Assembly (NCBI GenBank): GCA_937923605.1
Contig: CALDTY010000010.1
Location: 1 to 64,000, forward strand
Origin: Candidatus Absconditabacterales bacterium
Lineage (GTDB): Bacteria > Patescibacteriota > Gracilibacteria > Absconditabacterales > Absconditicoccaceae
Length of the DNA stretch: 64,000 nucleotides
Direction of reading: 5' to 3'
Position 1 is the stretch's first letter; the number at the start of each line of letters is the position of its first letter. The notes under the pieces were generated by a model that saw only the letters and a program-made list of their open reading frames with translations, was not told where the DNA came from and did no database searches. A program made the translations under genes and the position numbers. Of this stretch, positions 29,113-56,688 are shown piece after piece.

Positions 29113-32100
29113 ATGCAAAAACTCAAAAAATATTTCGTGAGTAGCATTATATTTTTATACCTTATCTCGACCTTTACTCAGACAAGTATATTTTGGCTTG
29201 CGCCAAAAGAAGTCTATGCGCAATCTTGATGATCTCATAGTAATATTGCAGCAGTATTAGTGGATACAACTATTTATGATTCTATAAGTTGAGATTTATC
29301 TTGGTATGCAAACACTTATCTTCCAAAACAACAACCTTGAACTGAATTAGTAGTGTTGCCGCTAGACCCATCAGGATTTAACGCAGATGATGTTTATCGT
29401 ATTCTTGAAAATTTATATTTTGACTGAAAGAAAGACTGAGGAAGCACTCTTGTTTGAGTTATAATCTTTTGAGAAATTCCTTTGCCTAGTATTGAAGTTG
29501 ATTGAAAACCATTTTTATCATTGCATCCCTATACAGATTTTGAAGGACCACCTATGTTTACTTTCAATGAATGACGCTGATTACGATTACCTAATTGATC
29601 TTCACATTCACAACCTGAAATTCGACATTCAATAATTCCAACAAACAACGTAGCAGTATTTACAAAGTTTTTTCAAAAGCTCAAAAAATATCACAACGAT
29701 CCAACAGAATATGCAACCTGACAAATTTGGTACGATGACTATGAGTTGATGCAAAAATCTTTCTCTAATGAGCAGCTGGACGAATATATAAACACTTTAT
29801 TGTTTGCAGAAGATGTAAGTTATAGAAGAATAAATAGTTCACTTACCGATGTACTTAATTCAGAATATGCAGAAGATCTTCTGTGAACTCTAGAGGTAAT
29901 GGAAGAGAAGTATGCTGAATCTGTTGCTCAATGAGTTCCTGATGAACTTACTCACCCTAAAGTAGATGGTGTACGTACAAGAATTGATACATGAGTATCA
30001 ACAATCAAAAACTTACTTTTCCCAAAAGATTGAGAAGTGAAAGAAATCTTGAGTAATTCGGAAGACAGTCCAATTGCTGCATCTAAGAATCCAGTTCCAA
30101 CATTGATAAATGCAAAACAAAATGAAAACAATTTCCGTGAACTTTTTTCAGTTTATTGAGACGAATATTTCTCAACCTTAGAAGATAATCTTTCTGCTGC
30201 ATGAAGATATGGAATGAAAACAGTAGACAACACATTGGAATTTATTCAATTGAAAGATCTTGTAGCAATGTCTTATTTGAAAGACATTAATACAATATTA
30301 GAGCACGCACTTGATGACAAAATACAGCAAGAACAGTATATGCTCAAAGAAGCCCTTCCTACCTGGTATGAAAAACGAAAGAGTGATGATATTTTAACTT
30401 GTTCACCAGATTGATGATCTGAGATTGATTTAGATCTTCCTTGATTTTGAGTTAACCCTGTCTGATCTAAGTTTCTCAATGAAAGATATGAAAATTTCTA
30501 TTTTTGAAAATATGCTTGAGATGTGCAACAATATGATGATTTACATGTATATAGAGGTGACTGGAGTAATCTTGATGCGACAACATTAATTAATTCACCA
30601 ATTGCAGTGCGTTCACTTGAAGATATACCGTTTGAATGGAATAAAACTACAATTTGAGCATCTTTTTGATGATTTGCTCAACAAACAAGATCAATGAGAT
30701 GAACTAATTTTGATAAATGATGAAAGGAACTCGAGTTATATAACACATTTGAATGTGAAGATGATCCAAGAGAGTGGTCAAAGTATTTCCGATGATGATC
30801 TTCTCAATTCAATATAGATCCAGAAAAATTAGAAGCAAACGCAAAAGATATAAATTTTGATCCAGAATTTTATGATAGAACCTATATGCGGCATCCTACC
30901 GTAAATAGAGCGATATGATGACCCCAATATGATCCTGCAGGAGCAACTCTTATGATGGAAAATGAATTTTGAGAGCCAACAATATCTGCTTGAAATAATT
31001 TCTTTGATTGATTTTCAGTTCAATCAATTTGAGAAAATTTAGAAGTGAATAACGCAACAATTCCAGATTGTGTACCCTTAGAACAAGATGATGACATAGA
31101 CAACGATGGCTTAGCAAATGATGCAGAGGAAGAGTTAGATATTGATGGAGATTGAATATTAGATACAAATGATGGCGATATTGATGGTGACTGTATTCCA
31201 AATACTCAAGATGATGATATCGATGGAGACTGAGAAAAAAATTGAAGAGATAGTGACTGTAATGGAGGTGGCTGAAATTGTGGGCAAGATAATGATGACG
31301 ATAGTGATGGAATTCCAGACGACCTAGATACAGATGATGATAATGACTGAACACCAGATGATCAAGAACCAGATCAAGATGGTGATGGAATCATAGATTC
31401 TGAAGATCCAGATGATGACAATGATTGACTCGAAGATGAAGTAGATCCAGATGATGACAATGATGGAATTTTAGATGAGGATGAGCTAGATAGTGATGGA
31501 GATTGAATTCCAGATGATGATGATCCAGATGATGACAATGATGGAATTCCAGACAATCTAGATACTGAAAATAACGTTGTCGTGCCAATGATTACGGCTG
31601 ATACCTTGCATCTAACTGCAGCTAAAGATTTTTCTGAAGTAGTTAAAGTAGATTGATTAAGTCGCTTTGACTATACAAGAGTATTAAAGCCGTTACTCCC
31701 ACAATTCGTAAGAGCAAAAAGAGAAAAAATGTATTGTGAAAATAGAAAAGAAAAAGACGACTATCCATGACTTTCACCATATGAAGAAATAGATTTCTTC
31801 CAGGTCTGGGAAAATGAACTAGTGGAACAAGATACTAAAAAAGTGATTTCTGTATCACAGAATCCCATAGAGGGTTGAGGTTGAGTTGATCGTTTTAGAA
31901 AATCTGATGTCGCAACAATTGAAATAGACGATGCATGAATGATGAAAGAAAATTGGAGACCACGATTTTATGAACAGAACATTCCAAGTTGAACTGAATT
32001 TTTAAAAGATTCAGATGTAGATAGAATTCCAGATATTTTCGATTATGATTTAGATGGTGATTCTATAGAGAATGAAGAGGATATAGATATTGATAATGAT

Positions 32101-35100
32101 TCAATTTTAAATGTAAATGATCCAGATATTGATGGAGACTGATTTTTGAACTGGTTGGATAAAGATGTTGATGGAGATCTAGTAGATGATGAATTTGATT
32201 GAGATGCTGATGGAGATTGAGTGATTAGTGATGATCGAAATGATGAGTTTTCAGATAGTGATGAAAATGACACAGAACAAGGAGATGAAGATAAAGAATG
32301 ATCAAAATGCGGTGGATGATGAAGTTGTGGAAGATGATCGAAACAAGAATCTTCTGACGAAGAAGTAGACCCAATTTCAGATGAAGAAGAATCAATACCA
32401 GAATTAGAAGATCCATTTGACTATGAAGTACAAAATCTAGCTAAACAGATAGAAACCTTAGAAGAGAATTTCACAAAAGAATATTTAGTTATTGAGCTTT
32501 CAGATAGTGACTGTCAGTACTGTATTGATCAGGCTGACAAAATTAATAATGATCTTGGTCTTCAAAGTCAATTAACAAACACTTGTGACTTTTTGGTCCT
32601 TACTCCAAATTGAAACTTACGTGATTGGGTGACTGAGGTATGAGCTCAGACAACATTTGTATGATGAAAATCTAGAGAAATTACTGAGTGAAATATTCGA
32701 GACTTAGAGACGATTTTTGAAGACTGAAGAAGTGCAGCTGGAATGCCGCATACATTTATAGTTGATCAAGAATGAAAAGTGGTAAGTCGCGCGATGGGTT
32801 CATTGCCACCGGACTTAGATTCATACTGTCCAGTTGATAAGAAAAGTGCTCAAACTAACTCTTCGATACTGTGATTACTTTCCAATCCAGTATATGCTCA
32901 AGATGAAGATCCAGATGAAGAAGAATGTGTTCCATTGGAACAAGATGATGATATTGATGATGATGGAATTCCAAATCAAGAGGATTATGATGATATAGAT
33001 GGAGATGGAATCCCAAATGATCAAGATGGAGATATAGATGGAGATTGTATTCCAAATACATCTGATGAAGACATAGATGGAGACGGAAAAGAAAATGGAA
33101 AAGATAGTGATTGTAATGGCAATGGAAAATGATGTTGATCAGATAATGATGATGATAGTGATGGAATTCCAGATGATCAGGACAGTGATGATGATAACGA
33201 TGGAACACCTGATAATGAAGAAGGTGATAATGATAATGATTGAAAGATTGACTCAGATGATGAAGATGATGATAATGATAATATTCCAGATCAAGAAGAC
33301 GATACCCCATTTGGTGAAAACTGATGAGATGATAGCTGAAATGAAAGCTGAAATGATGATTCAACTTGATGAGGTGGTGAATCATGAGAAAATTCAGGCA
33401 GTGAGAACGGAAAAGATGATCAACAAGAAAGTGGTGACGAACAAGGAAATACGTCAAGCAATAATGAAACATTTATACCAGGACTTCCTTATAATGTAGA
33501 AGTCAGAGAAAATACATGTGATGCATTAGCTTGATGATTATGAACATATAGAGAATGGAAATACCGAGACTATCATATTATTGATACAGTTGTTCAACAT
33601 AAAGCTCCAACAAACACTATGCTGCACCAATCCAATGTGTTAACTATGGCTAGACCAATAGATGATCCAAGGTATACTACATTTCATGGAGTGGGTTGAG
33701 ATTTAGTAAAACTGGTATATGCTGATTTGTATAATATTCCAGTATACGATGATTGATGAATGTTGCTTGAAGAAAAAGCAATTGAAAAAAATGTTCGTAC
33801 ATACTTCACTCAGAAAACACAGCAATTTAATAAACAGTTGCAGGACCAACTACAAAAAGCTCCATGACATTATGCAAAACATGCGAGTGCATATGATTTT
33901 CTAGCTACAGTTCATAGTTCAGCAACACCAAATCGTTCATATTCTTTATTGCCGTCATGATTTCTTGAGGATCTTGTGTGAGAAGAACAAATCCAACGTA
34001 TAGCTCATTCTTTATATTATCTTGCATATCCGTGGGAACAGAGACCTTGAGGTTCAACAGTTGACGAGTTTTTGAAAAATGCGAGAAAAGAATTTAATTT
34101 AGATCGCAAGATTGAATACGTATCTGAATTGTATTTACTTTTAAAGCCGTGATTACCAGAGAAAGAAGCAGATGATCCAGTAATTCTTCCTAGATATATA
34201 GATCCTAATTTAAATCGAAAAGAAAGAAAAGCATACGAAATTTGATATATAAATTCCGATGGAAAAGATGGGATGCCAATTTCTAATGATACATATACAA
34301 CATATACTATACCAGATGCGTGATGAAGTCAGGCTCCAATTTCTTCTTTGATTCCAGATGTTTGATCATTCAATGAAGCTCGCACCAATGCAGAAAGTAT
34401 TGCCTCTGCTGAAGATGAAGAGTGTAATGTCCCAGATTCATGAACAGTTCCATTACTGAAACGACCTAAAGCCTTTAAGTGTCGATTAAAGCAAACTTGA
34501 GAGAAACCAATTGAGTTTGATATAAATGTTGGAGTAGAAGTGCAAAATAATTTCCTAGAAAGAATGATTATTGATTGGTTATGATCAGAACCCTCTGACA
34601 CCACATCATGAATGTTAGGAAAGGAATATTTGTATTCTTTTGAGAAACCTCAACCTTTATTTTGAGAAGTTTTTGCTCAGGAGGTAGAAGATGTAATGGA
34701 AGCGCTTAACTTTTGAAGTTTTGTACGTCTTGAACCAAGCGATGTTTTTTCACAGAACAATGATGTTGAAAATTTCCTTGTAATATGAAGCGATCGTGAT
34801 TTATGAGAGCTGTCAGTATCAGTCTCTTCTACTTGAGAAAATCAAATTATAATTAATTGATCAGATATAAGCACTACATCACTTGACTTAGATTTACTGT
34901 TAGATTGAACTCGTGAAAAATTACCAATTCGTATACAATGATCTAATTCTTCACCACAAAATATTCTTGTAAAAATTTGTAAATCATCATCTTGTGTCGA
35001 GAAATCAGTAACTTCATTTATGAGTCCATGATCGCTTGATCAGATATCTATAATCACTCCTTCATCTCAAGTGCCTAAATGATGAGCTATCCCTATTACT

Positions 35101-41100: not shown

Positions 41101-44100
41101 TGATGAAAAGTAGAGTTAGATCTTGATCTTTGAGATTTAGATAAGTGAGATCTATGATTGAACTCAGGACCTTCTCTTCCTATCTTTTCTCGATCATCAC
41201 TTACACAGCAACAGAAAGACTATCATAACGTTGAACACAAATGATGATCACTACAAGACTCAAAAGAAAAATTGATAGAACAATTTAGTTATATTCTTTC
41301 AAATGAAGAGTTTGAACTATATCATGATGATATATTATCATTGCATTCATTTATTGACTCAGATGCTCAGGTTTCACCTAACTATACATCACTTAATGCA
41401 GCACATCAAGGGTTCAAAGATATGCTTAGTAAAACAAGAGGATCAATCAATGAGATGAAGAATCTTATAACACAAGATTATGATCAATTTGTGAAAACGT
41501 ATGTCCAAGATCATATCTTATTAAATGCTGATGAACAAGATGTATTTGTAGATCAATTTGATGTGCAATTATTTACTTGAAATCAAAAAGTAATTTCAAC
41601 TATTACTCAACAAATACATCCAACCGAATCTTATATCAATTTGCATAAACCACTAATAGAGGGATACCAAAATGCTTTAGAAGAAAATTCTGCTGTAGAT
41701 TTACAAATGACAGAATTGGTTTACGACTCATCTAAAAGATATATTGATTGACTAGCAGATAGGTTTATATGAGATGAGAAGTGAATGATTCTTGCTCAAA
41801 CATCTTGAAATAGAAATGATGAGTTAGTCGATGAAGAAGAATGTGTTCCACTTCTACAAGATGATGACATAGATAACGATTGAATACCAAACCAACAAGA
41901 TATTGTAGATATAGATGGTGATTGAATTCCAAATGATCAAGATGGTGATATAGATTGAGATTGTATTCCGAATACAACGGATGAAGATATTGACTGAGAT
42001 GGAAAAGAGAACTGAAAAGATAGTGACTGTAACTGAAATGGAAAATGATGTGGATCTGATAATGATGATGATAGTGATTGAATTCCAGATGATCAAGATA
42101 ATGATAACGACAATGATGGTACTCCAGATGATCAAGAATGAGATAATGATAATGATTGAATCGATGATTCAGAAGATGAAGATGATGATAATGATTGAAT
42201 CCCAGATCAAGAAGATGATACTCCATTTGGTGAAGATGATGTTGGAGATGAGTGAGATGAGAGTTGAGATGAATTATGATGATGAGCATGAGCGTGAGCT
42301 ATAGAAAATTTTGCAGAAAAGACAGGATTTGAACAAATTGATTTTTCTCAATATATCGATTGATTTTTCATTAAATGAACAGATGATAAATATCATAATG
42401 TTGTATGACGATGAGAAAAAATCAAAAAAATACAAGATGCTTGAACATATACATTTGTTGATCTCAATGGTGATTGATGAGTAGATATTCTTTCGCGAGA
42501 TGGAACCAATATTTATGTTAAATATGATAGTCAAAAGGATGCATATCCATGAGCAAGTGCATGATGAATGACAGTTATATGACCTTGGTCTAGTGTAGAA
42601 GAGTTAGAAGAGGCTGCAAAAAAAGATAATGGATACATAAGTGGTTTTAAAGTCCGAGATTATTACCGCACTCATATTAGTTTTTCAAGAGAGTGAAATA
42701 ATTTTGAATCATTATGATTTGCTCGAGACAATGATCACAAAGATTCTTATCTTGTGCGCCTTTCAAGAAACATTTCTGTGCAAAAACAGAAGAGTTGAAG
42801 CGTATGATCTACTTGATCTGAAGAAATTAAATACTTACTGATGGTTCCTGAATGAATTGAATATGAATGAGTTTATTTGGAAGTACCAGATGAATTATCA
42901 AAAAAGAAGATTAAAGACCACGTGGATTCTGAGGATATTATTCAAGTTTCTTTCTATGATTGATCTACCGAAACTTTGAGTGCGATATTAGAAAACTTAG
43001 ACCCAGCAGGATGGAGATATGCTAAGGTTTCGTCATTACGTCTTGAAAAGAATTCAACACTATTTTGAGGATCAAGTCGATTATTTACTCCTGCATCAGC
43101 ACGATCAAGACAAGTGGTAGCGTGAAATCAAAAATGGGGTGATGATGCTCAACCTTACTTAGGTTTAGAGCTTATTAGAAATAAGACATGAGAAAAGTTC
43201 CCATGATCATCTGAGTTAGGCGGATATGTTCTTACTGATTACACTCTATCATGACAATGGTTAGATAATTGAAAAGTGCTAGAAAATCGAATTGAGTATG
43301 ATAATGAAATTATATATTTTGACGAATCAGATAAGTTGTTGTTAGAGAATCTTTATTATAAAGAACCAACTAAAGAACATTTTGTATTTTGATCAATTGA
43401 TCAAGCATGAAATAAAACGACAATGGAAGTTGAATTAAATATCATTGCTCCTGAAGTAAATATCACAAACATTAAGGACAAAGGATCTTGATATGACATA
43501 GAGACAGAAATGTCTGCTACTATAGATGATTGAAAAATAGCTTTTTTGAGAGATAGATATTGATGGCGAGAGGAAATGAATCCTTTTACCTTTCCAGTGA
43601 AGCCAACAGATCCTAAAGTGACAGGGTGAATATACATCACCGATGACGAAATTGCACTAAAAGATTCAGATTGAAATACTAAATGTAACTGTAATGCTAA
43701 AAATTGAAAAATAAGTATTCCAGCTACTACTTGACCAAATGAGAACGGAGGTTGAGGAGTTTCTACATTAAATTCTTGAGATTGATGATCTCAAAAATGA
43801 GTAGCTAATAATGTCGAGGTTTTAGTTGACTTCTTACAGCAGTCACCTGAAGTTGCTGTCATAGATAATGATACTGAGCAAACTATTTTTAGAATCTGAT
43901 TTACTTCTCAAGAACTTGTTTCTTTAGGTATATTGGACTGAAATTATGAATCTCGTGTGTTGGAAGACAATAGCTTATGATTGTCATATATTTGATGAAC
44001 GTGTATTGGACCAATAGATTGAGAATGTCACATGTATGTATCACCTGACGGAAATCTTATTATACCAGAACCTTATAATAGTGAATATATGGCTGAGTAT

Positions 44101-44202: not shown

Positions 44203-45186
44203 ATGAGATTTACAAGAAAGGAAAGTTTGCTGACAGTTATAATCTTCATATCATGTATGTGGACATGAATTTCATTTGCTCAAGATTGATGAGACTGTGG
44301 TTTATCTTTTTGACCTGAAGAATTTAAAGATGCAGTAAATGAAACGTTCACTTCATTAAAGATGCCTCAATTATTCTTTACTGATAATCAATTAGAAGCA
44401 GTGCAAATGTCGTTAGATACGTATTGTTGTAGGACGGACAAAATTTCTAAAGCACTTTGTGAAAAGAAGACATTGTATCCAGACGGTAAGAATGTTATTC
44501 ACTCACCATTTTATTTGGATCACTTTCTGTCTATTTATAGACTGTACCTTAGAGGTGATGACGTAGTTTGCAATACATATGATTTTGATTGTTTTGCACG
44601 TATTGATGACGAGAAAGGGTATCCATGAAAATCACTTTGCTTTAGATTCGGAGAGGATGGTGATGCTAGATGTAAATCTTTATATGATGTTTGATCTGGT
44701 GTAGATATACTATGAGCATCAACTGATATTAGTTCTCCTTCAAATTATCGAGCATTATATGAAAAATTTTGGGTAAATGCAGATAATGCATTGATTCCTT
44801 CTGCACAAGAAGCTAAGAATATGGACCCAAATGATCTTACAATTCTACATATGTGACATTATATGTGCAATGAGGTAAATATGATTTATAATCAAGTGCT
44901 GAGGACTAATACAAGTAATGATAAATCTATGAATCCTATACCTTGAAGTACTCTGCAAAAATGTCGTACATCAGCAATGCAGTATTATAAATCAAATTGA
45001 TTTGATTACGTTAACGCATTGAGTCTAGCGAAATGAGTTGATCAGATGAGACAAATAAACGAACAAAGTAGAAACCATGTACTTGATGTCATGTGAGATG
45101 TAAAAAAAACCATGGTATGAATAAGAACAAAAATGACGAATATGTTAAAAAAATTCCCTTCCTTTACTAATACTTGTAGTGCATAA
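44203..45186 (+). CDS. Exported Cys-rich protein, unknown
   Basis: 327 residues, not recognised. N-terminal signal peptide (basic MRFTRKE, hydrophobic LLTVIIFISCMW, then a SFAQ cleavage-type site). The mature part has about a dozen Cys, several in pairs or close spacing (TYCCRTDK, CNTYDFDC, CRTSAM and a terminal TCSA), which fits disulfide bonds outside the cell. No membrane segment besides the signal. The gene starts 4 bp after the giant gene's stop and its own stop overlaps the next start (TAATG), so these genes are very likely one operon. The thioredoxin-like domain of the giant protein could serve such Cys-rich partners; that is speculation. Confidence 0.8.
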
Positions 45187-46922
45187 TGAAATTATTTTTG
45201 AGATTTATCTTAGTACTTATTCTCCTTACATCAACTAATTGATGGACTTTTTCTCAAAGTGAATCACAAGATTCTAATCAAGATAAGCAGTACAATTTAG
45301 AATGTGGAGATAAAACTCCAGCTTGTAATGACACTCCAGAACAGATCAAGTTGTATCTTAGTACTATGGACGCTATCCTAAAAATTATAGATGAAGTGCC
45401 ATCTGAAAGAGATGAAAATGATACTAAAGAGAAAGATTTTAAACGAGTCACTGATTCGGCATTTTCAAAAAGATTAAATTTGAGTTCTTTTATTAGTGAT
45501 GCATCTGATACATTGTTTAACTGGTGATGAGTGTTTGATGATTACAGAGCTATGGAAAAATGGTCATCAACATTTAAAAGAGATGCTCAAAAATTACAAG
45601 ACATGAATTTTAAAATCCTTGATATTACAGTTTTAGAACAGAAACAACTATTAAAGAAAAATATACCTAAAGATATCTACGAAAAAATAAACAAGGAACT
45701 TAAAAAAATAAAGTATATTACTTTTTGAGAAACTGGTGGTTCATATAATATGGAAGTGGCATGAGAGAAATATGAGACTCTTATTATTCTTCTTTCCCAG
45801 ATAAATAAAATGTACTCTGAATTGTATCAATTACAATTTCAATCGAATATATTTAAAAATTTGTCTTCGTCATGATTTCTATCTTATGTATATCCATGAG
45901 ATACTACAAAAGATAAAATTGATTTAGAGTCATTATGATTATTAGCAAATTGGATGAGAGATTTTTTGAGTAAAGTATTCGTGAGACCATTTGAAGATAT
46001 ACGTAATAATGTAAAACAAGAAAGCGAATATGTAACTATTGACCATAAAGAATTTTTACTATTAGTTCGGGAACTAGAAAATGCCTATAGATGCACTCAC
46101 TGAAAACAGAATGTGTGTGATGATTGAACTAAGAAAACTAGAGATAAATTTAAAGAATTATTTACTGAAACATTGCAAAATGATTCAGAAAAATCTTGGC
46201 ATAGAATACAGGATGCAACATCTCGTTTGAAATGAGCTTTATTTTGATGATCTGTAGAAGACAAGAAGGCGGCAGAGGAAAGAAAGCAATCACTTCTAGA
46301 GTGAAGATATTGAGCCTGATGAAAACCTAGTGAACGCTGACCAATACAGTCATTAAAAGCTTTTGGTGCACAACTATTAGAAGGCGCAAGAAATAGCGTT
46401 GATCCAGCAAAGAAGTACTTTAACAAAGAAGAATCATATTCAGAACAAACAAACTGAAGTCAACAAGTGTCGACTGCAACACAATGAGATGCAAGTATTT
46501 ATCATGAAAATGAAGATAAGTATAGTGGTAGCTCAAAAAAGAAAGATGCTCTTGATTGAGTTTTAGCTGGAACTGAAAATAAAATATATGATAGCTGAAA
46601 AATTATTCAAACTGAGAACCAACTTCAACAAAATCAGCTTCGTGTGTTAGAAAATAAAGTAAAGACTATTGTGGGATCTTTTGATAAGTATGCTTGAATT
46701 AAACAACGTCAATATGAAAGAGATCTTCTCTATTTGGACACTAAAACTATGACTAAGCAAGCTGTATGATTAAGTATATATGTCCATGCGGCAGCGAATC
46801 GTTTTTGAGACTACGATAAAGATCCTGAGTCAAAGTATGTTTCATCAAATGATTCGTTATCAAAAATGTGTGAAGCACAGTGTACTAATTTATGATCGAA
46901 AAAATGTAGAGAAGATTTATAA
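45186..46922 (+). CDS. Exported helical protein, unknown
   Basis: 578 residues, not recognised. Signal peptide MKLFLRFILVLILLTSTNG, with cleavage probably in the following WTFSQSE. The mature protein is largely helical and charged, with a Cys pair near the start (LECGDKTPACND), one in the middle (CTHGKQNVC) and a C-terminal cluster (MCEAQCTNLGSKKC). A low-complexity Ser/Asn/Gln/Gly stretch lies around residue 410-450. Translationally coupled to the preceding gene by a 1-bp overlap. No enzyme motif. Probably an envelope or extracellular component of the same apparatus as its neighbours. Confidence 0.75.
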
Positions 46923-46925
46923 AGA

Positions 46926-48398
46926 ATGGTTACGAGACTGCTACTTATATCTTTACCACTTATGATGATGAAAACTTTATTTCTTAGGTTACAAATAAGT
47001 ATATGAACGTTGCTGTTCATGCTTTTTGTTCCATACGTAAGTTTTGCTCAAGATGCGTGTTTAACATCTCAAGCTGACATTACAGAACAATTTCTATGAT
47101 CTTTGTTACATGAAGATCAAGAGAATACAATCGTATGAATTCTTGTGGGAAATAAGGATACATCGATCCTAAAGAATAGATTAGTTGAATATTATTGTGA
47201 TACTTGGTTACAAAGTCATGGCACAGCTAAAGATTGAATAAAAGATATGGTCAATTGGTGTGTAGACACAAATAATATGAGATTCGACCCAAGACAATCT
47301 TTGTTTATGTATGGCTTATGTGTATGATACGATGAGGCACACAAATGAAAACCTACATTAGTATCACAAAAACAAGAGAATTATATCCATAGAGATTGGA
47401 AAAATGAAGCATTTGCAAAGATTCAGTATACATATAAGACAACGAGTAAGGGTGAAAAATGAAAAACAATTAAATGAGATATAACAGATTTTATACCAGA
47501 TGACAGTCAAGATGCAAAATTGTTGCAGAAATGGCGAAAATTAGATAAAGAAAATGATCCTTGTCAGCCTGAGTCTGGAATGTCTGAGTGTCTTATGTGA
47601 TATCCGACGAGCAATATTTTGAAAACAGTTTTTTCTGGACTTTTTGATTTAAAAAAAGCAGCAATTGACTGATTTAATCATTGAACTGATGAAGAAAGTA
47701 TAGTTTTATCAATCAAAGATTTATCAATTTCATTATATGATCAACTTTGACCAGAGAATAGTGTTTGTAATAACCCAGATAAGCAATACTTAATGAATCA
47801 AGATTTTTGATCAACAGATAAACAATCCCATTGTGGTCATCTAAAAACCCGAGGGGAAGTCAAATGAATTATTAAGGCAGCCATTAAAGATGTCGAGTGA
47901 ATAAAGGAATTGAATGGAGTAAAAATTGCTGAAGCAGAATGTACATGAATTAGAGATTCTTTGATTCCATGTGCCATGAGTAATATGGAAGAAGGTACTG
48001 AAGGAAAAGAAGATATTATTTTTGCTAGTGAAGAGTGGTCATGGAGAAATCTTATTTTAAATGAATTATTCTTCGCTGACATGCGAATTGAGTTTTATAC
48101 TATGATTATTCAATCTGAACCAACACGTCAATCTCAGCAAGCATGAAGCGTTCTGGATAAGAACGTTAGAATTGATTTTGAAATACAGTCTATGAAAAAA
48201 GATTTTGAGCTAATTGAAAAAAGTGCAGATAGATTACTAAATATGTTATGACAGTATCGTACTATGTATCATCAATGTATTACGCTCAAGGCCTATCAAG
48301 AAGACCTCCATTACTATTGGTCAAGAATTAATAAAACATATACCCCGTTACATCAACTACAATATACTACTGAGGATGCTCAAGAACAAGGAGGTTAA
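46926..48398 (+). CDS. Exported Cys-containing protein, unknown
   Basis: 490 residues from the first ATG; starting at the ATG at 46968 instead gives a cleaner signal peptide (MKTLFLRLQISIGTLLFMLF, cleavage near SFAQD), and this start may be the real one. Mature part soluble, with scattered Cys pairs (WCVDTNN, DPCQPESGMSEC, NSVCNN, TECT-like EAECTGIRDSLIPC) compatible with extracytoplasmic disulfides, and a long helical C-terminus. No known domain. It starts 3 bp after the previous stop. Same layout (signal peptide, Cys pairs, helical end) as its two upstream neighbours, though the sequences are not obviously alike. Confidence 0.75.
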
Positions 48399-48427
48399 AT
48401 ATATATATTTTAACTTATACATAAGAC

Positions 48428-50734
48428 ATGAATAGCAGCAGAGTTTCACTTATTTCAATCTGAATATTCCATATATGATGTATCATATTGCTTTTTTTCT
48501 GATATTCTATTGCTGCTACAAATCCAGAAATTGATACACGTCTTTTATTGCAAGATAGGGTATTAGAAAACAAAGATGCCTGAGATAGAACTACATTAGT
48601 TGATAAAATTGTAGATGGTCGTTGACTATTTGAAGCGAGTTATTCTTTTGAAATATATAGCCAAGCTCTTACGCATTCAAATACTATTGATAGTATTTTT
48701 GATCATCTAACAAATTACATGGAGTATTGTCCATGATGAGTTTTATATACGAAACAGGACGCAGAACAGAATATGCAAAAGGAAGTTTATCTTCATCCGG
48801 ATCCCAGAACAAAAAAACCTGTCCCAATCACTCTTACAAAAAAGGATGTTGTAAATGTATATACTTTGTCAAAAGCATGATTATGAATATTGTGAACTCT
48901 TAATAACGAAAGAGTTTTTGATTTTGCTCAAGTAAGTGAAACTGATAAAGCTTTCCTTGAATCATGTAAGTGGATAGTTTCATGTCAAGAATGAATTTCG
49001 AAATTAAATTACGATTGAACAACTATTAAAGAAAATGAAATTCCACCAACAACTGCTGTGGAGAGAGATCAGTGTGAATCAATTGTGACAGATCTTTTTG
49101 ATATTTATAGTGCACAAATTGGTTTGGGACTTGAATACGATACTAACAGAGATTGGGAAATCTATTATAACAATATTTTAGAAGAAGATCGCTGACAGAT
49201 CTGTGACGTTAATCAAGAATTAGAAAAGGTCGGTAAACTATTATGAAGTACAGTTGAAGATTTACCTAAATATTCATTTTACGATCCTCAAAAAGTGAGT
49301 AAAAATTCCAGTTGATCATATTCATGAGCATGAGATGATGACGAAGTAAGACTGCCATCAGAATATGAATCAGAAGAGGAGGAAGTTCCTGATGAGTCAT
49401 CATTTGAGAATAGTATTGAAGATATTCCTTATAATAGTGTTCCAGATGAAACTATAACTAGGGAAGTAACTTGAGACTATTTGTGATCTGCCAACAATTG
49501 AAAAAAAGTCGTTGGGCCTTCGTGAGCATGATGATGAAACTCGGATCGTCTTGTCGCTAAACCAAAAGAATGATGACTTTCATCTTTAATAAAAACACCT
49601 AAACAAGCAAATAGTGATAAAATATGATGAGTATGAGTGATTCAAAACCCACAGTGTGAAGTAGATGAATTGTGACCTGAAGATAAAGATATTGATCTAC
49701 TCAAGGAGTCTTGAGATTTAACCGATACATTACAAAAATATTGAAACGACCTTGATAAAGATGAGCGCTTGTCTCAAGCTCTTGCAAACGAGAAACTTCT
49801 TACAAAGAAAGAACAAGAAACACATAATATACAAGACGAACCAGTTATTACTGAAGATGAGTTGCAAGAAGACTTAGATAACTATTTAAATTGAATGGCA
49901 AAAATCGATGAAGAAGATACGTTATCTACTTTAGAACAAATGGAAGGTGATATTAAGTCATGTATAACAGAATTCACAGATGAAGATGAATGATCACGAA
50001 GAAGTCAGTTGGCAAGAATGATAATGTGAAGCTCAGAGTTAAGAGAATGTTTAAGGAAAGTGTTCTGTAAGGAAATTGTTGATCCCTCTTGATTATGAAT
50101 TTATCGTATCAGATTTTGTAGTAGAATGAATAAAACAGTAAGCACCCCTACAACAAAGAAAGTAAAATCAATATTGGATACACTAGAAACTGTGTATACA
50201 GTTTTACATTGAATGACAAGCAGTTGACGTATGGTAAAACATAAGCAGGCTACTGAGGCTTTAGAGTGACAAATTGCCGACATAAAGTTTAAAGATATGT
50301 TTTCATTTACAATCAATGTAATTAAGAACACCCCACGTACAACATCTGATCCTAAAGTTGAGAAAGAGTTGATTCTTCAAGAATTGCAAGACATTAAAAA
50401 AGTAACGATGAATGAATATGAAGATTTAAGTGTTTTGTTTCCGTTTATAAACGATGCTACTATGTATAATGAGTCTAGAGTAAAAGCAATAGAGCAAGAT
50501 TTACAAATTTCTACTGATTTTAAATGATCACTACAAGAAGCAAATGATATTATTTGAGAACTAAATAGATCAGGTGATTACTTGTACGACCATTACCGCC
50601 GCATGACAACGTTTGAACAAATTCAACATGGAAACATTATTATGGCAGATCATATTGAGTTTTGGCGTGATATGTTAAGCTTAGCTGAAGAACTTAGATC
50701 AGAATTAGAAAAACATTACAATAAGATGAAATAA
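48428..50734 (+). CDS. Large exported or membrane-tethered helical protein, unknown
   Basis: 768 residues, not recognised. A hydrophobic N-terminal segment (SLISIGIFHIGCIILLFFGY) could be a signal peptide or an anchor. Next come a soluble helical part with Cys pairs (SCKWIVSCQEG, QCESIV), a disordered Gly/Ser/Glu-rich middle (about 290-400), an acidic helical stretch, a second hydrophobic-free domain with CLRKVFCKEI and a long helical C-terminus. No catalytic motif seen. Fourth in the row of exported proteins after the giant gene, 29 bp after the previous stop, and so probably part of the same unit. Confidence 0.75.
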
Positions 50735-50780
50735 TAGTAAAAATGTTACTCGTAAACTTTGGTTTTACCTTCCCATACAT

Positions 50781-51992
50781 ATGTTATTAATTTGAGATAT
50801 ACATATTACTTGATGAAAGAAAGACAAAATAATTGATGTGATCAGCGAATATATACTCTGATCTTCTGACACATCAGTTTTGTTTTTATGAGATTATGTC
50901 TATCATTTTAACTATGATAGGAAGGCACTTATGGCCTTATTTGACTTATTTGTAAGTTGTTTCGAGCAAGGCAAGGATGTATATATTCTAGCATGAAATC
51001 ATGATCGAATATGATGACACTTTGTATACCAGGAAGCACAAAAAGCTTTTTCATACGTTTCTTCTTGAGATTGACGTTTGTTATTCATTACAGAGCCTGT
51101 CTTGTTACCAATTCAATGACAAGATTGTCTATTTTTTCCTTATCATATTCCAGCTAAAGACATAGTTATATCAGATAGATATAACGAACTCTCAGAATCC
51201 TCACATCAAAAGGAACAACGATCAGCACGTGCAAATTCTTTGCTATGAACAATGATAGATAACCGAAAAGCTAAGAATAATTGAAATTTATGGGTGTTTC
51301 ATCATCGATATATGATTTGAACTGCATTTCCAGGACAATTTTCAAAATTCAGTTTCAAAAATCCTTGATTATCAGATCATTTTTTTGATGAAGAGAATAT
51401 TATGCTATGTTCATGACATTTACATCAAGCTTTTTCATATAAAAATTATATTTGCTTATGAAGTGTTTGGCATACTTCTCCTTTGGAAATAAATCAAACA
51501 AAATATCTTTTTTCTTTAGACACAAAAACTCAACTGGTCAGTGCGACTCCAGTCTTTATTAACCCATATTATCACATCGAAGCAACCGATGGTTCAGTAT
51601 TATGAGTACAAGAAATTGAGCAACATATACAAGCCATTACTGCACAAAGTCATGAACATCTCTTTTCTTGAATGCTTTCAGTTGAAATAGTGGATTGAAC
51701 AACGACACCAACTCTAGAGATGAGTACAGTGACTTTATTGGCAGAAATAAAATACGATCAAGTAGATGATTATGTTCATGAAGATGTACTGAGACGTTTA
51801 TCGGATTTTCGTATCAAACAATCAAAACGTCAGCTACCAGAAATACTAGATTTTTTAGACACAGAATCTAAAGAATTGTGATTTCGTATCTCAGATCGAA
51901 AGTCATTACTCGTTTCATATATTAGTCAGAAATATTGAGAAGAAAGTGATAGGTATATAAAACAGTTAGAAGATGTATGAATTTCTCTCTAA
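50781..51992 (+). CDS. Calcineurin-like metallophosphoesterase (SbcD/Mre11-like)
   Basis: 403 residues. Metal-binding motifs in order: GDIHITGG (D-x-H, near residue 6), FLGDYVYH (GD, near 38; Tyr replaces the usual Phe/Thr), LAGNHDR (near 73), VFHHRYMIG (near 175) and CSGHLHQAFSY (GHxH, near 216), the full set of the calcineurin phosphoesterase superfamily. The C-terminal ~170 residues form a capping region as in SbcD/Mre11 nucleases, so DNA is a possible substrate. No SbcC-like ATPase gene is adjacent. It sits among exported and VirB6-like genes, which is unexpected for a DNA repair nuclease. Confidence 0.85.
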
Positions 51993-52106
51993 AAGACATG
52001 CCATAAAGATTATTATATATTTGTAAATATCCTATAGAGTTAGATTTACCTTTTTTTGCCTCAAACATAGCTTCAAGTATACTTAGACAACTAAGTAACT
52101 TTAGCT

Positions 52107-52114
52107 AAAGGTGA
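52107..52114 (+). promoter_or_regulatory. Shine-Dalgarno-like site before the first VirB6-like gene
   Basis: AAAGGTGA at 52107-52114 with the ATG at 52118. Most genes in this window lack any such purine-rich site, so this one stands out and supports the chosen start. Confidence 0.5.
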
Positions 52115-52117
52115 TTG

Positions 52118-54814
52118 ATGCAACGTTATATTAGAAAATTAATATTTGTACTTATTATACTCAGTGTCTGCATTATTGTATGAGACTATTTTTGAGTTAT
52201 AGAAGTTTTTGCACAAACATGAACTAGTGAAACCACAATTTCTGAAAAGGAAATTGCTTTTGCTGCAAATCTTCAACTCGTAATAAGAATGGTGTACCTG
52301 CTTATGTGGCCGTTAGTAGCTATAGTCTGAGCGACTTTAGATAATTCAATGGTTTTGTGAGAAGTATTCTATCTAAATGTATCAATATATAGAATGCGAC
52401 AGATAATGAGAAATTTTGCAAACTTTGCTTTGTGATGAATATTTCTTTTTGCAATACTTCGTAATGTCTTTGTTGCAATGTCTTGAAATGATGATTCTTA
52501 TATCAACGGTGAACGATGAATTAAAAAGTTATTACCTAAGATGTTATTATGAGCTGTACTTATACAGTCAAGTTTTTTTATGATGAGTACATTGATAGAT
52601 CTCTCTACAGTTGCTATCTATTCTGTTGGAACCTTACCGTTTAATGTAACCATGTCAGATCAACTCAATGGTAAGGTAAAATGATGACTTGAGAACGTTA
52701 GATTCCTAAAGCCAAATATAAAATATAATTTAGATAATTCAAAAGCACCAGATGGAACAGATGCCACTTTTAGTATATTTTATAGTTGCCCATGAAACGA
52801 AGATAGAACCTATTATATCGCATGTAAATTTCAAAATAACAGTACAATTCCAAGAGGAACAAATTGAGATGATCCGGGAACATGGTTGGCTCATAAAGAT
52901 GCAAGAGCTGAAGAACGAGCGAACTTGACGGGAATGCCAACTGCAGATGTTCTTGCAAAGATTGATGATGACTTTTGTGTGTATGAGAATTCACTTATAG
53001 AAAATCCAAAAGAAGTAGAAAAAGTAGATGTATGTAAAATTGCTAAACGAAGACAAGATGCAGAAAAAGCCGAGGGTGAAGGAGTGATGGCAGCACAATG
53101 ATGTCCAACATTGGCAAGCTTCATGACTAATGCTGCTGGTATGACTTGACCTATGTATGGTCTTTATGCTTCTATTTTACGCATGGATCAAATAGCGCTT
53201 ACCCCGAACCATAAGGATGTTATTGAGATATCTCTTGAATTTTTAATTAAATTATTCACTTCAGTTGCATTGATAATTCCTTTGCTAGCATTAGCAGTTG
53301 CTATGATGGTGAGATTGGTTGCCTTATGGTGATTTATAATATTTAGTCCATTATTGATTTTAGGGTGGATATTCTTTAAGTGACAAACTGACTGAATTAA
53401 AGACGGAAAAGCATCATTTAGCTCGTTGATGTGACTTATTTTTATGCCTGTTTTAGTGGTTTTTGCGATTTCTATATCTCTTGTATTTATAACATTGCTA
53501 GCTAGATCAAATGAAATCAATGTAGCTAATATCGAAGGTAACTCATATAGCGTTCCAGATGCATCAATTTGATCTAAACTATGAGTACAGTATGAACCAT
53601 GAGCGACTTGTGATCCAGTTACATGATTAATGAAATGTCCAGATGAGAAAAATAACCCAAATTGTGGTAATATAAATAATCACTGTTATGACTTGGCATG
53701 AATTACAACTTTATGTTTTTCAGATTCTCAAACCTCTATAGGAAATACTATATTAAATATTATGTCATATCTATTAGTAAATTTCTTTTGAATTGCATTG
53801 ATGTGGATGGTAGTATTTGCTGCATTAAAATCCTCAAAAATAACGTGATGAATTACAGATCAAATTAAAAATCTAGGACAAGATTTTGCTAAATCTATAC
53901 CTTTAGTCCCAATAGCTTGAGGATTATCATATAATGATATAAAGAATACAAAAGATGAAATTTTAAGTACTCCAAGTAGAATGGCAAATACTCAAAATAG
54001 AAATTTCTGAGAATATCTTGATAGACTAAATGCGAAAAGATGAGTAAAGAAGGAGGGAGCTGATATAGAAATCGACAAAGCATTAGGTTCAGATAATGCG
54101 CAACAGCAGGCAAAAACATTCTTTTCTAATAAAGACTGATGAATAGCAGATAATACAAGTATTAAGGATTATAATAAAGGGATGAAATTATTAGGAGCAG
54201 GTGCTGGTATTAATAATGCTAATTCACTGACTGATATTGTGAAGACTGATGCATGATATGAACTTCTACGTAATATGTGAGATTGAGATGTCTCGAAATC
54301 TTTACAAAAATTAAATAAAATTAATGGTGCTCAAGAACAGGCAGAAATTAACGCTGACTTGCAAAGAGATATAAAAACTTGACTTGCTGAGGCTGCTGCG
54401 CAATGAGGCTCTAAAATAAGAGCAATAACTAAAGATAAATTTTATCACATGGATCATAAAGAAGTTGTCACTATCACCGATGATGGAAAAATGAATACAT
54501 TCAAGGTTTGAACAATAAAAGATGCATTAAATAATTGAACAATAGATACAACAAAGATTAACTCATTGTACACAGAACTTGACGCAAGCCCAAATAGTAC
54601 AGAGGTTCTTTGAAGTTCAAAACTATTACAAGATTTACAAGGTCTTCGTACAGCCACATGAACACATTATATAGTGTCTCAAAGTTGAGCCCCAACAGAG
54701 TTTACGTGAGATATAGATCTTTGAAGAGTTAGTACTACGGATGTATTAGTAACATTTGACGCAGCTCATAACCAAATCACTAGCATTAAACAGGGAACTA
54801 AGGGGTCTACATAA
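52118..54814 (+). CDS. VirB6/TrbL-like polytopic membrane protein 1
   Basis: 898 residues. N-terminal signal-like segment (LIFVLIILSVCIIVGDYFG, then an FAQT site). About six or more membrane segments follow: near residues 45-70, 95-120, 145-170, then after a soluble Cys-containing loop (FYSCPGNEDR, DDFCVYEN, QGCPTL) a pair at about 385-425 and 435-470, and one near 550-575. The segment GASVALIIPLLALAVAMMVRL-like region and the motif LGWIFF recall the VirB6/TrbL family of inner-membrane channel proteins of type IV secretion and conjugation. The C-terminal ~300 residues are soluble, Ala- and Gln-rich, and not recognised. The family call is pattern-based, without a search. It would form part of an inner-membrane channel. 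Confidence 0.7.
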
Positions 54815-54828
54815 TTATTTAATTACTC

Positions 54829-56688
54829 ATGATAATGAACAGATGGATGCAAAGTAGCACATGTTGATTGATTATAGCAAGCATGCTTGTCATAGTTTTG
54901 TTTGTGCCAGAATTTGCATATGCATCTGAAGATTCTACTATGAAAAATACATTTGATATATTTAATATAGTTTTACAGTTCTTGTCTTGGGTTTGGATTG
55001 TTCCCGCGATATTAGCATGAGAGCTTTTAAGTAATGATTTAGTGTTTTGAAGTTCTTTTAACTTTGAAATATATCTTTGGAGAATTTGGACAATAATGAG
55101 AAGTTTTGCAAATTTCTTTATTTGATGATTGTTCTTATATTATTTACTAATGCATATTGTCAAATCTGTCCAAGGAGCAACTCTTTGAGATTTTTTCAAT
55201 AAAATACTAAGACTTTTCTTGGCTACTATTCTTGTGAATGCAAGTTTCTTTCTTATTCGTGCAGTTGTAGATATATCTATTGTCGCAACGACAGCAATTT
55301 CTTCCTTACCGCACGCTATCATTGAATCTAGATGGCTAGAATTGAAACCAAAAATGACCGTTAATAAGATGTTTTGTATTGAAGATTATGCACCAAGCTT
55401 TAAGAATTGTGATAGAGAAGAAAATAAAGAAGTATGATTAACATCAATATTGCCTCAAGCTGACAATATGTGATGACCAATATTATTTATGGGGGTGGCA
55501 ATGTTAGATTTATTGAACGCAAACGTAGTTCCAATTGACATTAAGAATCGAGAAAATCTAGCTCTAGCAACTGTAATGAAAGTATTAATGATCTTGTTCT
55601 TTACTGCACCAATATTGGCATTGATGATTGTAAATATGTTTAGAATATTTTATATTCGACTTCGAACTATCTTCTCCCCTTTTATCGTGCTAGATCTTGT
55701 GATGTGACAGGAGAACTCACCTCTAAAATGAATTAGGGGAGAGTGAGGAAAATGATGATTAGCTTACAATGGCTTGTGAGATATTCTTTGACTTATTTTT
55801 GTTCCAGTAGCTGTGGTATGAACATTGGCAATTTGATTTATTCTATTGCTATGATTAATGAGTGTGATTAAGTGATGAGCTGCATATGAGAGTCGAGCAG
55901 TTAATAGCATACAAATTACAAACAATCCTCCTACTATTTCAGTTCCGCACGTAATGAATATTTGAGTAGAGTGATCACTTTTTCAAAGAACAGCTTTTAG
56001 GACATTAGGTTTTTTTGGAGAAGCGCTTATGTTATTTTTTAGTATGGCTATTTTATGGTGAATAGTGAAGGTTTGATTTTCTACAAGCTCAATCGCAAAA
56101 AGATATTCTGATCAAATGTTTGATGCGGCAGCTGGTTTTGCAAAATCTATTCCATTAGCTCCAATAGCTTGAGGAATGTCATGGTCTAGCATTCAAAACG
56201 CATGATGAGTTGGATGAGTGTTGAAAGGAGTTTCATGACTTCAACAAAGAGAAGATATATCTAGAGCTACAGCTCAAGAAAGGACTAATAAGTTACTAGA
56301 GTGACTTTGAATTAGCTGATGATGATATGAGAACGACATCGATCCAAGTGTTCTTGCTAAAATTAATTGATCTGCATGAATTCAAAGCAATGTAAACTCT
56401 ATTAGAAAGGCACTTGTTGATAAAGATGGCAATAAGAAGACAAATATTAGATATGCATGAAATGTGAAAGCAGCTTTTGAGAAGATGAATGCATCAGTGC
56501 TTCTTCAAGATTATTTTCCAAATTTAGATCCAAACATGAATGCAGAAACACTACATCAGACTGAAGCCTGGAGAGATTTTGTGAAAGATGTTATAGAATG
56601 AGATGGGAATATACCAATTAGATCAAGTAGGTATAGAAATTCAAATTCTTCTACTCTTCTCAAGACAGATATATTTAATGCTGAATAG
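54829..56688 (+). CDS. VirB6/TrbL-like polytopic membrane protein 2
   Basis: 619 residues. Signal-like first segment (LIIASMLVIVLFVPEFAYA). Further hydrophobic spans follow near residues 45-70, 90-115, 125-150, 245-275, 310-345 and 395-425. Soluble Cys-bearing loop between spans 4 and 5 (KMFCIEDYA, FKNCDRE). A shared feature with protein 1 is FAKSIP-L-APIAGG after the last span (SIPLVPIAGG there, SIPLAPIAGG here), so the two are probably distant paralogues. The C-terminal ~190 residues are soluble, helical. Starts 14 bp after protein 1; likely co-translated partners in one channel. Ends 13 bp inside the convergent tatD gene. Confidence 0.7.

Follow-up and report, generated by a model that had tools for sequence, protein, structure and literature searches.

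A predicted TlpA/ResA-type thioredoxin domain inserted between acidic arrays of a giant exported protein in Absconditabacterales

We analysed a window of 64,000 nucleotides (the whole stretch of DNA considered here) from contig C10 of a draft assembly, G000 (1.31 Mb in 34 contigs, 83.5% complete), of an uncultured Candidatus Absconditabacterales bacterium that is probably epibiotic. TGA was read as glycine throughout (code 25, Absconditabacterales/SR1). The genes of the window are open only under this reading, in which the giant gene of the locus forms a single open reading frame (Table 1). In the segment that encodes the thioredoxin-like domain, seven glycines are specified by TGA; two of these are glycine in every one of the five relatives, and a third in each of the four that align at that point. 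Placement of the giant at the cell surface is predicted from its signal peptide and repeats. Its N-terminal core was found in all 26 good genomes of the family, and full giants are collinear over 3.6 to 5 kaa. The closest named relatives came from Candidatus Absconditabacterales and SR1 genomes (ten relatives in a contig search with the core), while searching genome contigs with the single protein gave no relative. Weak Peptidase_C25 matches were obtained for two of eight members (best E 0.0025), and residues 37 to 650 are perhaps a degenerate Peptidase_C25-like or gingipain-like fold. This core has no cysteine before residue 430. Behind the giant lies a cluster (44203-56688) of exported and large multi-transmembrane proteins without Pfam or NCBIfam names, the order of which is the same in the related genomes G002 and G003 and kept in part in other genera. 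Comparison of the downstream membrane proteins with PDB and NCBIfam returned nothing useful.

Table 1. Features of the giant gene and of the gene that follows it, in window positions
Feature	Position	Strand	Remarks
Giant exported protein, 5,028 aa	29113..44199	+	Open only with TGA = Gly; 3' of mutS
N-terminal signal peptide of the giant, ~residues 1-36 (..KEVYAQ)	29113..29220	+	Hydrophobic stretch at residue 11; same pattern in G003 homologue
Conserved N-terminal core, residues 37-650	29221..31062	+	Kept in 45/49 family genomes
Acidic DxDxDG array 1	31069..31572	+	Absent at the corresponding place in G003
Acidic array upstream of the thioredoxin (Trx) domain, residues 985-1065	32065..32307	+	70% identical in G003; also precedes Trx in G012
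Predicted TlpA/ResA-type thioredoxin-fold domain, residues ~1104-1245	32422..32847	+	Profiles, alignment, AF2 model
Active-site pair CQYC, residues 1134-1137	32512..32523	+	Five-member alignment
Third conserved Cys, residue 1158	32584..32586	+	Invariant in 5/5 members
Pro 1212 at the cis-Pro position (MPHTFIVD)	32746..32748	+	Invariant in 5/5; matches CcmG and 2lrn at their cis-Pro region
Fourth conserved Cys, residue 1239	32827..32829	+	Invariant alignment column
Short hydrophobic linker SSILGLLSNPVYAQ, residues 1250-1263	32860..32901	+	Of 18 positions aligned with G003, 33% identical
Acidic array 2, four conserved Cys, residues 1272-1400	32926..33312	+	72% identical to G003
Core resumes, segment "C25b", residues 1455-1740	33475..34332	+	Seen in every full-length giant of the family that was scanned
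Acidic array 3, paralogue of array 2	41842..42228	+	Same place in G002, G003
Downstream Cys-rich exported protein	44203..45186	+	12 Cys in 327 aa (3.7%); orthologues follow the giant in G002, G003

An earlier note, made from the letters of the window, had placed a thioredoxin-like domain with an active-site-type CxxC pair and a cis-Pro position at 32461-32832. This segment is in frame and corresponds to residues 1117-1240 of the giant, and its sequences are as described there: LVIELSDSDCQYC carries CQYC, MPHTFIVDQEGKVV carries Pro 1212, and the hydrophobic stretch SSILGLLSNPVYAQDE begins at nucleotide 32860. The entire reading frame contains only two CxxC pairs. In the alignment, C1134, C1158, P1212 and C1239 are invariant, and C1137 is lost solely in a stand-alone copy from genome G012. 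The central insert typical of TlpA/ResA proteins is present, with 78 residues from C1134 to P1212 and extra helices and a strand in the AF2 model, and the domain aligns with redoxins along its entire length. The giants have neither a Trp before the CxxC nor a CPxC/CGPC motif.

We then considered the evidence for the fold. The window's own domain gave sub-threshold Pfam matches, all of thioredoxin type: Thioredoxin_2 (E 0.0059, 17.4 bits against a curated cut-off of 27), AhpC-TSA (E 0.014, 15.8 against 26) and Redoxin (E 0.017, 15.4 against 26.6). Since the single domain scores under the curated cut-offs, we regard it as a divergent member of the thioredoxin superfamily. NCBIfam matches, likewise sub-threshold (dsbE 0.1, TrbB 0.13, HepT 0.12), were set aside. 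A five-member profile matched 24 PDB chains, mostly Trx, TlpA, ResA and CcmG proteins, with 1kng (E 0.0044) and 2lrn (E 0.0049, residues 10-125) at the top; matches to HepT were confined to the N-terminal half and were discarded. In the same search the CQYC pair, which opens the active-site helix, fell on the active site of CcmG. Comparison by hhalign with sets from related genomes gave P 3e-4 over 107 columns for redoxins and P 5e-4 for both Trx and DsbA-like proteins; for seven control alignments, which were taken from the giant, P was 0.13-0.48. The PDB and hhalign results thus amount to significant similarity to thioredoxin families.

Structure prediction from the five close relatives alone reached a pLDDT of 41 and was not taken as evidence of the fold; Foldseek with this model returned no match at E <= 1e-3, and its list was set aside. 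An alignment of 28 sequences yielded a model of pLDDT 90.5 and pTM 0.86. Because this alignment includes redoxins of other families, it leans the model towards the thioredoxin fold, and the model is not independent of the assignment; the sequence confidently modelled in this second run is nevertheless the window's own domain. Foldseek found 213 matches to it at E <= 1e-3, of which the 50 that were listed all have the thioredoxin fold. Foldseek and VIA-align grouped the model with ResA/TlpA/DsbE proteins, with TM values of 0.5-0.66 and Z reaching 12.2, the superposition on ResA having an rmsd of 2.9 over 125 residues. Structure prediction thus recovered a thioredoxin core and not some other fold, and residues ~1104 to 1245 are modelled as a real, divergent TlpA/ResA-type thioredoxin fold.

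In a further step, the distribution of the domain was investigated. Among 59 relatives, homologues were found in G003 and G012, with weaker matches in G011 and G033. G003, of the same genus as G000, has a mutS-adjacent giant with CVYC, and G012, of another genus, has a mutS-adjacent giant with CDSC in which the domain is ~35% identical. The CxxC is accordingly retained in both Trx-bearing giant homologues, and on this count too the earlier reading held. Separate homologues in related genomes were also found, and they are exported. One, on G012 contig C16 (L017 9465-10220), is a signal-peptide-led Trx protein with CSHN that runs off its contig; the other, on G011 contig C6 (L019 2149-3993), is a lipoprotein with a CAPC Trx domain, followed by Cys-rich repeats that are presumably of Myxococcus type. 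Both belong to the same Trx subfamily, with ~30% identity to the window domain, and differ from it in not being part of a giant. The stand-alone G012 protein adjoins (L017 8992-10220) a small membrane protein that by eye resembles pilin-type subunits. The match in G033 is a DsbA-like protein and was not counted as a member; a profile search of 49 family genomes gave nothing further except this weak match. Among 288 genomes of the class, the domain was found in none besides G000, G003, G011 and G012. Giants of genera g1 and g9 were the only ones in which it was seen, and a scan of the remaining full-length giants gave no Trx match. G002 was discarded as a Trx-less congener: the assembly breaks in the array, where 140 bases are identical between contigs C46 and C70, and the intervening stretch is missing. 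G001 and G004, in which the relevant stretch of the giant was not assembled or not found, lie outside this comparison.

The surroundings of the domain indicate how it may have arrived. The arrays are putatively of a Ca-binding type, resembling thrombospondin type 3 (TSP3) repeats in their DxDxDG pattern only; the segments that contain them matched no curated TSP3 family of Pfam up to E 1. Their copies are paralogous modules with four conserved Cys each; arrays 2 and 3 share 82% DNA identity over 447 nt, the homology beginning just past AQ. A 2,861-aa subtilase-type protein of G000 (contig C19, L026 2926-11511, minus strand) also has a copy at 54% identity, so that the array is shared between surface proteins. 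At the insertion site, the family core passes from "..IDFF.." to "YKTIDS.." over a short stretch in several genera, and helical inserts occur elsewhere. G000 and G003 have ~490 residues at this site, consisting of array, Trx domain, linker and array, and the G012 giant shows the same array-Trx order up to the end of its contig. As far as the sequences indicate, the Trx domain is thus a lineage-specific insertion in a core loop between DxDxDG arrays, and a single insertion in the common ancestor of the two Trx-bearing genera would be the simplest reading.

The earlier note had instead suggested that formerly separate exported proteins were fused, with the hydrophobic stretch before array 2 as a remnant signal peptide. 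The existence of exported stand-alone Trx relatives agrees with the first part of this proposal, and G003 has a similar hydrophobic stretch ending in AQ at the same place (FIGDIFGFFSSKVSAQ). However, the giants show a loop insertion, with the family core continuing on both sides, and not an end-to-end fusion. The hydrophobic core of the linker is real but short (~ILGLL) and lies under the ~7 residues of a signal peptide core. The linker as a whole is poorly conserved, with 33% identity between G000 and G003, compared with 51-72% in the neighbouring modules. VxAQ was observed 23 times in giants versus 26.3 +/- 5.3 in shuffled sequences and is not enriched; internal signal peptides as processing sites were rejected on the same ground. 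Moreover, no array was found directly behind an N-terminal signal peptide, every copy found being internal, and array homology starts only past AQ. The array positions and the VxAQ counts therefore do not support a remnant signal peptide, and we consider an end-to-end fusion of two exported proteins, in which the VYAQ stretch would be the old signal peptide of the second, very improbable. A separate observation concerns array 3, which is preceded by [IFA]LAQ (ILAQ, FLAQ, ALAQ) in three genomes of genus g1, G000 (41788-41799), G003 and G002 (L166, L164), in surroundings that diverge.

We consider it fairly probable that the domain is a surface-displayed thiol-disulfide oxidoreductase of TlpA/ResA type, inserted between the arrays of a core surface protein. 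The alternative of a redox-inactive thioredoxin fold, serving as a structural or binding spacer with the Cys pair as a permanent disulfide and C1158-C1239 perhaps as a second one, appears doubtful to us, although several observations speak for it and against an active role. SDSDC replaces the usual WC, so that the active-site surroundings are divergent and lack the Trp; the stand-alone G012 paralogue has CSHN; and the domain evolves faster than the flanking modules, with a lower identity between G000 and G003 than any other folded module (51%, against 67-72%). G012, with its CDSC giant, also gave no DsbD_TM match. On the other hand, C1134, C1137, C1158, P1212 and C1239 are all retained in the three giants that have the domain, even though the G012 domain has diverged so far. 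Because four Cys and the Pro are conserved in a fast-evolving domain, we infer that an active oxidoreductase is favoured over a mere spacer.

Genome G000 provides a possible redox context. It encodes on contig C2 a DsbD-like membrane protein (L160 186-2873) that combines an exported CYRC Trx-like part with a DsbD transmembrane part, and G003 has the orthologue (L161 200-2734, contig C25). The middle part of these proteins we take to be YyaL/SSP411-like. Contigs C9, C12 and C27 of G000 (L001-L008) encode many further Trx-like proteins, several of them exported, including a lipoprotein with two CGSC domains, a CPGC lipoprotein, and CPRC and CPIC proteins. Since G000 encodes the DsbD-like protein and other exported Trx-like proteins, electrons could reach the outside of the cell. 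No VKOR-type oxidant was found in the family genomes searched.

In the favoured reading of an active oxidoreductase, Cys 1134 would attack disulfides of nearby surface proteins, Cys 1137 would resolve the mixed disulfide, and the enzyme would be reset by electrons moved outward via the DsbD/CcdA-like protein. The domain would then be a tethered extracytoplasmic thiol-disulfide oxidoreductase, be it a reductase, an isomerase or an oxidase. Its nearest candidate substrates would be the Cys-bearing array modules and the Cys-rich product of the next gene (44203-45186). The earlier note had pointed to several Cys-rich exported proteins downstream; this applies to that gene and to 46926-48398 (11 Cys in 490 aa, 2.2%), but not to the other exported ones, which contain 0.5-1.4% Cys.

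A role confined to the giant itself was also considered, in which the domain would act as a folding factor in cis and isomerise the giant's own disulfides (array Cys and SKCGGGGSCG) during export. The four conserved Cys of each array copy, the position of arrays on both sides of the domain and the array-Trx order retained in G012 are consistent with this notion. We nonetheless judge it unlikely, as the array is also present in the subtilase-type giant of contig C19, where no Trx domain was noticed, and most giants of the family are without the domain.

We next compared the domain with known systems. With TlpA, ResA, CcmG and StoA (ResA, PDB 1st9 and 2f9s) it shares the fold with central insert, CxxC and cis-Pro position (Z 11.6 to 1st9) and an extracytoplasmic location, which is predicted for the window domain. 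In contrast, it is ~14% identical to these proteins, lacks their WC before the CxxC, and lies between acidic repeats within a protein of 5,000 aa, whereas a TlpA/ResA-type protein is small and anchored. The pneumococcal proteins Etrx1 and Etrx2 have surface-exposed TlpA-type Trx domains fed by CcdA1/CcdA2 (PMC3914529), and both are matched by the AF2 model of the window domain. These are lipoproteins with the partner MsrAB2 (PMC3914529), while the window domain is a module of a giant protein. By analogy, Etrx1/2 with CcdA would be its closest working counterpart. The window domain would be a divergent, lineage-specific version of the TlpA/ResA-type oxidoreductase, inserted in a family-wide giant surface protein.

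Giant membrane or surface proteins of up to 4163 aa were described in Ca. Vampirococcus lugosii (Absconditabacteria), with a proposed role in host recognition and fixation (PMC8080830). The passages of that description on these proteins name WD40, PKD, saposin, integrin and fibronectin domains and no Trx domain. The two cases share the phylum-level group and the presence of giant proteins. It is conceivable, and in our view highly unlikely, that the giant reaches a partner cell and that the Trx domain, on Ca-dependent stalks, exchanges disulfides with the surface proteins of that cell; attachment or prey opening by epibiotic or predatory bacteria would then have a redox step.

Functions have been assigned to few parts of the giant surface proteins in Absconditabacteria. 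A lineage-specific, enzyme-type insertion in a collinear giant would offer one testable activity, and giants with and without it form a natural comparison. The DsbD-like conduit and the exported Trx-like proteins are an added sign of an extracytoplasmic thiol system in these reduced bacteria. The presence of a thioredoxin-type domain in a giant suggests that the surface proteins of such tiny bacteria are a site of redox chemistry.
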